64,000 nt of DNA from the NCBI GenBank assembly GCA_012842395.1, contig DUSX01000002.1:62001-126000 (forward strand). The letters are read 5' to 3'. Each line of letters starts with the position of its first letter. The stretch's first letter is position 1. Position numbers and translations under genes: made by a program. Below are positions 11,094 through 59,800 of this stretch, piece by piece. Source of the DNA: Bacillota bacterium. GTDB taxonomy: Bacteria > Bacillota > SHA-98 > UBA4971. The notes under the pieces were generated by a model that worked only from the letters and a program-made list of their open reading frames with translations, searched no databases and had not been told where the DNA came from.

Positions 11094-11214
11094 GGTATTG
11101 CCGCTCTTTGTCTCGGGGAATGCCGTGCTCTTGCGAGCCTCGTTCGAACTCGGCGCTTAAGACACTTAAGACAGCCGAATTCCCCACGCCGCGTCGTGCA
11201 AGCACGGCAACCCT
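11094..11214 (+). repeat. Structured TIR repeat, copy B
   Basis: Homologous over its whole length to the copies at 48023-48135, 30527-30640 and 17016-17135. The right end reads CACGGCAACCCT and the left end is a decayed complement. The internal stem is GAACTCGG (11146-11153) with CCGAATTC (11175-11182). Its loop is 21 nt instead of 12 because CTTAAGACA is duplicated at 11156-11173. Homology with copies A and C continues about 25 bp past the right end. Confidence 0.8.
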
Positions 11215-11715
11215 GACTCCGTCAAGAAAGGAGACGACAACTCACGGCGCCATACTTAGGTCTCTTTCTCTAAACCCTTCAGACAGCCCGGTACCCCACC
11301 TGACCCGGCTCGCGAGGGGCGCACGGCGCGGCGCCGCCCGGGCCACATCGGATCGGTCGATAACAGTATGCCTTTTCATACGGGTCATTATGCCCTCCAT
11401 TTACACAGTATGCATACGCGCCCGCGCCGCGATCGGCTGGTCCGGCCCGGGCTGCTGCTACACATGATCACGATCGACTCGGAGGTTGCACAGACTGCAT
11501 GCTCAGTCACGGAGATGGCAAGTGGAGCACGTGCGCTGCGCACGTGGCGGTCGCTTCAACTTCGGAGTGGCTTGTGCATAACTGAGGCCTGCAAGAGGTC
11601 ACGAGCCTGCGCAGGTGCTGTGTCCGGGAGCGCCCCCGCTGCGAGTCGGGTCTGGCTTCCGACGTCTACGGCCGGTGCCGCTTAACACCGGAGCGCAGCT
11701 CAAGGCGTTGCTCAA

Positions 11716-17015: not shown

Positions 17016-17135
17016 TGGGGTGCCGGTTATTGCACGAGGACGCATGGAGAATCTGGCTATCTCACGCGCCAAATCCGGATTGGTGTACGCAACAGAGAGG
17101 GCCCATCACCCGAGGAGGGCGGGGCCCGCAACCCT
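17016..17135 (-). repeat. Structured TIR repeat, copy D
   Basis: A diverged copy in reverse orientation, about 40 bp after the pheA remnant. Ends are GGGGTGCCGGTT and GCCCGCAACCCT. In element orientation the internal stem is GGATTTGG with CCAGATTC. The loop is 12 nt and all eight pairs hold if two are G-U wobbles. Confidence 0.72.
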
Positions 17136-30309: not shown

Positions 30310-30519
30310 GTGGCAAAGACCAAGGGCCAGATCGAAGCCGAGATAAGCAACGCCGTTCTCAGGTTTGAGAAGGAGCACATGGGCAGAGGTCCGGACGACG
30401 AGGTAGCCCAGGATGTCAAGATCCTGGCCACTGTGCATAACCCCCGGCGACCTCGCGCGCTGACGGCCGGAGCAACGGCGACCTTCAGCTCCGACCAGGT
30501 ATTCCGCCTCTTTTCTTGA
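30310..30519 (+). pseudogene. N-terminal remnant of a DUF2294 protein
   Basis: The first 31 residues (AKTKGQIEAEISNAVLRF, then EKEHMGRGPDDE) match the start of DUF2294 (Na-translocating-like) proteins, which normally continue for another 80-90 residues with the EV(R/K)TY(I/V)xDxMxLVRLKGVLTPAE region. Here the match ends abruptly and the remaining 38 codons read unrelated Arg/Pro/Ala sequence. The frame runs into the outer tail of TIR repeat copy C. It is best read as a truncated gene. Confidence 0.7.
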
Positions 30520-30526
30520 AGGTGTT

Positions 30527-30640
30527 AGGGTTGCCGGTGCTTGCACGACGGGGCGTTGAGAATTTGGCTAGCCCGCGCGCCAAATTCGAACGAGGCGCGC
30601 GGCAAGCGCGCCGTCCCCGGAGAGCAACACCGGCAACCCT
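30527..30640 (-). repeat. Structured TIR repeat, copy C (best preserved)
   Basis: 114 bp bounded by perfect 13-bp terminal inverted repeats AGGGTTGCCGGTG (30527-30539) and CACCGGCAACCCT (30628-30640). Two internal stems: GGCGCGC/GCGCGCC (30594-30612) and GAATTTGG/CCAAATTC (30560-30587) with a 12-nt loop. Homology with copy A continues outside the left terminus to about 30505. Confidence 0.9.
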
Positions 30641-30665
30641 GGATGCAACACCAGCAACCTTGGAC
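30624..30665. repeat. Two tandem 21-bp units at the end of TIR copy C
   Basis: GCAACACCGGCAACCCTGGAT is followed by a near-identical unit with A for G and T for C. The terminal inverted repeat is thus partly duplicated outside the element. Confidence 0.75.
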
Positions 30666-30878
30666 GGGACTTCCGTGGTAAAAAGTAGCGCGAACCTGCG
30701 GTAATCTGCTTAGGGGACCTGCACGCACTACCTCTCTAGGCGCCGGAGCCCCCGTCCGCGCACGGCCGTCCCCGGTTTGTCGGGCCCGGCCGTTCGGACC
30801 GTCAGGTCAGGGCCGCTCGCCGGGCGGCGCCCCACGGCGCGGGAGACATGCCGTTTGAGGCGCCTTGACGCTCACACC

Positions 30879-38646: not shown

Positions 38647-38783
38647 GGGGTTGCCGGCGTCCGCCAGGCGAACGAACGGCGGGGCTCAACTTACGCGTAC
38701 CACCCCACTGACCTTCGGCGTGAGCAAGTGCGAGTGGTCGGCTTGCTGGCACGGCCTGTCGCCTTGCGGCCGCCGGCAACCCT
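38647..38783. repeat. TIR repeat with different interior, copy E
   Basis: Ends GGGGTTGCCGGCG (38647-38659) and CGCCGGCAACCCT (38771-38783) are inverted with 12 of 13 matches and resemble the ends of copies A-D. The 110-bp interior is only weakly similar. It fills most of the gap between the convergent FAD oxidoreductase and NifU-like genes. Confidence 0.6.
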
Positions 38784-47956: not shown

Positions 47957-48022
47957 ACCGTCACTGAGTACGTGTGTGTCGCCAAAACCTCGTGCTACTT
48001 TTCGGTGGGGCGGTCCTGCCCT

Positions 48023-48135
48023 AGACTATCGGCCTTGCCCTCTGGGGACGGCGCGCTTGCGGCGCGCCTCGTTCGAATTCGGCGCGGGAGACATCCGAAT
48101 TCTCCACGCCGCGTCGTACAAGCACCGGCAACCCT
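48023..48135 (+). repeat. Structured TIR repeat, copy A
   Basis: About 113 bp. The right end is CACCGGCAACCCT (48123-48135), identical to copy C; the left end is decayed. Stems: GGCGCGC/GCGCGCC (48050-48068) and GAATTCGG/CCGAATTC (48075-48102) with a 12-nt loop. The 27 bp after the right end match the tails of copies B and C (GTCAAGAAAGGAGACG in A and B). Confidence 0.88.
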
Positions 48136-48198
48136 AACGCCGTCAAGAAAGGAGACGAAAACTTATGGCACCGTGCTCAGCTACGGCACACTTGTAAG

Positions 48199-59674: not shown

Positions 59675-59689
59675 GCGAACTGCAGGCGC

Positions 59690-59800
59690 GGTTGGTGAGT
59701 CCCCGAGGTGGCGCGCTTGCGGTGTGCACCGTTGGGATCTGAGGTGGCGCGCGAGATGGCCAAACCTTGGGCGCTGCGTCGTGCAAGCGCCGCCAGCGCC
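59690..59800 (+). repeat. Degenerate TIR-type repeat, copy F
   Basis: Shares with copy A the segments GGCGCGCTTGCGG near its left and GCGTCGTGCAAGC near its right, in the same order and orientation. Termini and internal stem are too decayed to define. Confidence 0.5.

Follow-up and report, generated by a model that had tools for sequence, protein, structure and literature searches.

Several families of small repeats with terminal inverted repeats (TIRs) have been described in bacteria. The RUP element of Streptococcus pneumoniae, an IS630-Spn1 MITE, is 107 bp long, occurs in more than 100 copies, carries IS630-like TIRs and inserts at TA, while the Correia/NEMIS elements of Neisseria, of ~107 and ~155 bp, are small TIR elements with TA at their termini and stable stem-loop transcripts, and the ERIC/IRU elements of enterobacteria are imperfect palindromes with TIRs, a TSD and TA at the termini (all three as described in PMC2229807). 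The insertion sequences IS630 and ISY100 target TA (in CTAG for IS630), duplicate it and move by cut and paste with a single DDE transposase, and the transposases of the IS630/Tc1-mariner group, as seen for ISY100, work on double-stranded ends (PMC2170065). The preference of IS630 for TA within CTAG is published by Tenzen and Ohtsubo 1991, cited in PMC2170065.

The repeat described here is very probably a non-autonomous MITE of the IS630 family (Tc1/mariner group), whose palindrome is upheld at the DNA level, and it represents a new family of IS630-derived MITE, known in kind and unusual in anatomy. The original prediction, made within a 64-kb window (the whole stretch of DNA analysed), described four copies, A to D, of a ~115-bp dispersed element, all of which are present at the positions and in the orientations given there. 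A search with a covariance model, proposed at the same time, recovers these four and adds a fifth, copy E; the training alignment of the model left out copies A-E and included other copies from the same genome. The copies are the following:

48022 to 48135, forward strand: core of copy A, the element of the original prediction (covariance model R1, 85 bits, E 6.3e-17)
about 47964 to 48180, forward strand: full element of copy A with its outer arms and degenerate ends CTGAGT...GCTCAG
11094 to 11214, forward strand: core of copy B (covariance model E 9e-6)
30527 to 30640, reverse strand: core of copy C with a perfect 13-bp core TIR (covariance model 133 bits, E 1e-27)
17016 to 17135, reverse strand: diverged core of copy D (covariance model E 8e-6)
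59685 to 59800, forward strand: diverged core of copy E (covariance model E 3e-4)

The full element of copy A starts 7 bp beyond a MATE-family gene's stop codon. The right arm of copy B reaches its end ...CCATACTTAG at 11259 and its left arm is degraded, copy C has diverged outer arms (roughly 30495-30713), the outer ends of copy D are unrecognisable, and copy E has a degenerate right arm that extends to about 59857. The internal details of the predicted copies also agree with the sequence: the 13-bp core TIR of copy C is perfect (AGGGTTGCCGGTG/CACCGGCAACCCT), the internal stems read GAATTCGG/CCGAATTC in A, GAATTTGG/CCAAATTC in C and GGATTTGG/CCAGATTC in D, the stem of copy B has a single mismatch, and the loop is 12 nt long in A, C and D. 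Elsewhere in the window, at 38648-38782, an inverted pair GGGTTGCCGGCGTCCGCCAGGCGA / TCGCCTTGCGGCCGCCGGCAACCC resembles the core ends, has no recognisable core between its members and may represent either a decayed copy or some other repeat.

The predicted length of ~115 bp proved too short. When 30 copies from the same genome are aligned in one orientation, they are homologous over typically ~211 bp, reading CTAAGTATGTCGCCAAAAGTTCGCGC...core...GACGAAAACTTATGGCGCCATACTTAG and ending in CTAAGTATGTCGCCA...TGGCGCCATACTTAG, and their flanks are unrelated outside CTAAG and CTTAG, so that the 115-bp stretch is the core of a longer element. The 13-bp repeats are therefore not the transposon ends, which lie ~50 bp further out as CTAAGT/ACTTAG, and can be written C-TA-AGT...ACT-TA-G; the end motif, with up to 2 mismatches, has 131 matches in the genome and 5 for a reversed control pattern. 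A dispersed, mobile-type element with inverted-repeat ends is thus supported, with its borders moved outwards. The whole element is a single long palindrome with a forked tip and a highly stable predicted fold (-115 kcal/mol); it carries no transposase and is mostly intergenic. Versions of 313-326 bp, in which an additional segment (GAGACCGTTGATTTCTCCC or the like) adjoins one CTAAGT-type end, were seen at L251 301-613, L252 301-625, L125 570-884 and L204 4052-4377.

In the genome that contains the window, that of an uncultured Bacillota bacterium (3.14 Mb, 61 contigs), the covariance model identifies 137 or more core copies at E<=1e-4; the true count may be higher, as 150 candidates were scored, and this number argues that the copies did not arise by chance; a BLAST search with copy A gave 40 strong matches in the same genome. 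Full-length copies occur in four further genomes of the genus (G001-G004) and a few in another (G005), and the same core is also present in a second genus within the family and in another family belonging to the class (G013, G015), while no core copies were found in a third family (G014, G016). Among 299 sampled Bacillota genomes, nine match at 1e-6, all from three genera of the same class, and the remaining 290 gave no match at that threshold; the matching named records are Bacillota MAGs and include Yes71-24, MAG-64, AS04akNAM_80, UBA6811 and AS23ysBPME_252, among others. The core was not found in plasmids or phages, nor in viral contigs by an exact pattern that would miss diverged copies. 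Many DUMQ01 contigs (for example L091, L093, L107 and L129) start or end in or near the element, which probably breaks short-read assemblies and leads to underestimated copy numbers.

If the ends are read as C-TA-AGT...ACT-TA-G, the element is expected to have inserted into CTAG and duplicated the TA. In genome G013 many copies lie inside another repeat, in the filled form GGACGCGG|CTAAGTG...CTTAG|TCGAGCAGGCCG, and a relaxed pattern search found the predicted empty site GGACGCGGCTAGTCGAGCAGGCCGCTCC at G013:C78:44435, where the sequence reads GGACGCGG-CTAG-TCGAGCAGG (GGACGCGG-CTAG-TCGAGCAGGCCGCTCC); the flanks of the empty and filled forms match over ~60 bp on the left and ~17 bp on the right. 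This is the only exact CTAG empty site, and nine other empty copies of the host repeat have CCAG or CCAT at this point, next to a small change. In sister species, one-sided junctions read CTAG at L247 and L231 and TAG at L232 and L242-L244, and neither CTAG nor TAG at L021 and L010; the sister genomes are only ~80% identical and their intergenic flanks are mostly unalignable, so such junctions are usually usable on one side. The filled and empty sites support a TA duplicated at a CTAG target. No direct repeat was seen outside the element ends in 90 full copies, so there is no duplication beyond TA in these, and long target duplications were ruled out on the same set. As a separate observation, copies of the element frequently lie within a further repeat (GCATAGGGTGTCTCGCATCTCTCCGCCCGGCGGACGCGG ... 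TCGAGCAGGCCGCTCC) at L108, L161, L141, L122 and L147 (G013 / AS04akNAM_80 records), giving repeats within repeats.

A transposase with matching ends had been suggested as something to look for, and IS630-family genes were found by a search with NF033545, which picked up internally deleted copies, PF13358 alone having given too few. Genome G015 holds a near-complete IS630 of 1143 bp, between CTAAGTTAGTGTCC and CTAAGTTAATGCAC, with CTAAGT termini and one in-frame TGA, the likeness of its ends to those of the MITE being weak beyond CTAAGT. Two internally deleted IS630 copies are present in sister species, one of 514 bp in G005 that keeps the N-terminal part of the transposase and one of 391 bp in G004 that keeps the C-terminal part. 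The MITE and the G004 copy match in their 3' arms (CTAAGTATGGCGCCATAAGTTTTCGTCT vs CTAAGTAAGAGCGCATAAGTTTTCGACT, score 34, shuffle maximum 22), and the 5' end of the MITE of the second genus matches the 5' end of the G005 copy (p 0.002); the terminal repeats common to the MITE and the IS630 copies of the same lineage are thus strong at the 3' arm and weaker at the 5' arm. Nothing corresponding to the core is known from these IS630 copies. In the genome of the window, PF13358 and NF033545 searches found no intact IS630 gene and only a small fragment, so current activity there is doubtful and the family may now be inactive in this genome; no insertion sequence was found between inward-facing element ends in those examined of ten regions fetched from it, which were drawn from about 100 of the 131 end matches. 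Two 46-bp sequences, CTAAGTTAGTGCGCAAAAATCTC...GCATAG, at L099 2646-2691 and L148 7257-7302, resemble a single IS630-type end and could be excision relics or tiny MITEs. The ends (AGT...ACT, flanked by a duplicated TA in a CTAG target) very probably descend from an IS630 insertion sequence, and a putative IS630 transposase acting in trans would have moved the copies by cut and paste.

The position of the element relative to genes bears both on how it spreads and on whether it acts as RNA. For 330 distinct element ends, and counting ORFs that span at least 150 codons and clearly dominate the other frames, an ORF terminates precisely at the TAA within the element end (C-TAA-GT) in 47 cases, compared with 11 and 8 in the other frames (p 4e-10). 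The coincidence is equal for both ends, at 17/96 for the left and 15/94 for the right. Insertion turns C-TAG into C-TAA-GT, so one stop codon is replaced by another, and purifying selection together with the CTAG target would account for the enrichment with no active preference required. The CTAG target and the AGT end thereby let a transposon hit stop codons in either orientation with the stop retained, and landing in stop codons could plausibly let it reach many copies at little cost in a GC-rich genome. For stop-codon-associated bacterial MITEs, no equivalent was found in the passages of open-access literature consulted, and novelty is thus not proven.

The compensating changes noted in the predicted stem are real across the genome and the class, as scored on 46 diverse cores against a named structure in which an outer core helix forks into two tip hairpins. 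In this alignment 90.6% of cells pair, about 37-44% with a partner slid by one to three columns, and changes on both sides occur in 20/39 pairs (12.0 when shuffled) and in 89 cells (26.8 when shuffled), values that none of 500 shuffles reached and that are inflated by the relatedness of the copies. The second genus keeps the same helix with many separate variants, such as GGGTAGCCGGTG/CACCGGCTACCC, GGTGACCGGTG/CCCCGGTCACC and AGGTGTCAGGTG/CACCTGACACC. Such covariation, though present, is not specific to RNA. That the repeat is a functional structured RNA, a regulatory or 3'-UTR element with a fold preserved by selection on transcripts, would fit the very stable fold, the strong covariation with conserved internal-loop residues and the frequent location at gene 3' ends. 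If RNA from one strand were selected, however, G-U should exceed A-C, and over 124 copies the mismatch cells number 177 G-T and 181 A-C; 52 divergent representatives give 114 and 111, and the copies of the window's own genome alone give more A-C (70) than G-T (41), all from non-independent copies in an alignment fitted to the structure. As a yardstick, 19 tRNAs in the same loci show 21 G-T and no A-C, a comparison biased by the pairing that ARAGORN requires. The equal proximity of both ends to stop codons means that the element has no set direction relative to transcription, in G013 the core is placed either way round with respect to the arms, and Rfam gave no match, the best hit being far below its gathering score (E 0.71), in line with the original statement that the repeat was not recognised as a known family. 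A structured RNA is consequently quite improbable, and the suggestion of selection on a folded RNA is disfavoured by the parity of G-T and A-C and by the lack of a preferred end at genes. The same parity and lack of orientation relative to genes argue for upkeep of a palindrome in DNA, and the paired changes are best read as such maintenance, not as selection on a transcript. The palindrome would be kept through template switching or arm-to-arm conversion, through a requirement for the palindrome in DNA, or both.

The alternative suggestion of a hairpin recognised by a transposase is not needed, since IS630/Tc1-mariner transposases use double-stranded ends (PMC2170065). A related possibility is that the repeats are palindromes of the REP/REPIN type, mobilised by a Y1 (RAYT/IS200-IS605) transposase through recognition of a single-stranded hairpin, as the palindromic, high-copy and mostly intergenic nature of the element might suggest. 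REPIN hairpins are tagged GTAG or CGTC and are associated with a Y1 tyrosine transposase, whereas the ends here are CTAAGT, TA is duplicated in CTAG, and the relatives with matching ends are DDE-type IS630. Strand-specific recognition of a hairpin also predicts an excess of G-T over A-C, for which no bias is seen, and the element is ~211 bp long as opposed to the 20-40 bp given for REPs in PMC3733652, so this reading is highly improbable.

The core itself behaves differently from the arms. Between two families with unalignable outer arms it aligns at ~82%, it is carried by at least three arm types, some copies of the second genus show no CTAAGT ends, and a 92-bp copy at L123 1525-1616 consists of arms only; its orientation within the arms is fixed in the genus of the window (64 to 2) and goes both ways in the genus of G013 (25 to 18). 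A second core subtype, with first tip hairpin GGCGCCCCAAGCGGGGCGC and second arm AAAATCCGGCCCGT, is found alongside the main type within these genomes (L105 3454-3570, L171 6394-6511, L174 2318-2434, L184 5586-5705). These patterns would suit a core (GGGTTGCCGGTG...CACCGGCAACCC) that is an independent mobile module, inserted into several IS630 MITEs and spreading as a composite, a view that still allows the outer element to be a MITE. Yet neither a target duplication nor a transposase was seen for the core, the arms-only copy could be a deletion, and most copies in the three genera have outer ends, which makes joint spread with the arms the rule; an independently mobile core is accordingly conceivable, with the balance tilted against it. 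Class-wide conservation of the core exceeds what is expected for the inert interior of a MITE. A bolder and rather doubtful proposal is that the core forms a DNA-structure module of its own, conserved in the class and exchanged or flipped between IS630 MITE arms because the forked palindrome promotes spread; the forked DNA itself would then aid spread, for instance at replication forks, and bacterial MITEs would be equipped with an amplification cassette that can be reused and is selected for its structure.

The element provides a well-sampled case in which a DNA palindrome yields RNA-like covariation and in which the comparison of G-T with A-C is a simple separator, which matters when covariation in repeat families is used to call new structured RNAs; the class-wide presence of an unexplained core is also a concrete lead on the success of some bacterial MITEs. 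With the described systems the comparison is as follows. The element shares the TA target and TA duplication with IS630 and ISY100, and CTAG with IS630, the difference being that those are autonomous and the present element is without transposase. Compared by description, ERIC/IRU is of a similar size class and is likewise an imperfect palindrome with TIRs, a TSD and TA at the termini; no partner transposase is known to have been established for ERIC. Correia/NEMIS, also compared by description, resembles it as a small TIR element with TA at its termini and differs in host and in reported size (~107 and ~155 bp). RUP is related by kind, again by description, being small, present in more than 100 copies and inserted at TA with IS630-like TIRs, but it is 107 bp long and belongs to another host lineage, whereas the present family is palindromic over its whole ~211 bp, has a covarying core that recurs across the class, and is enriched at stop codons.
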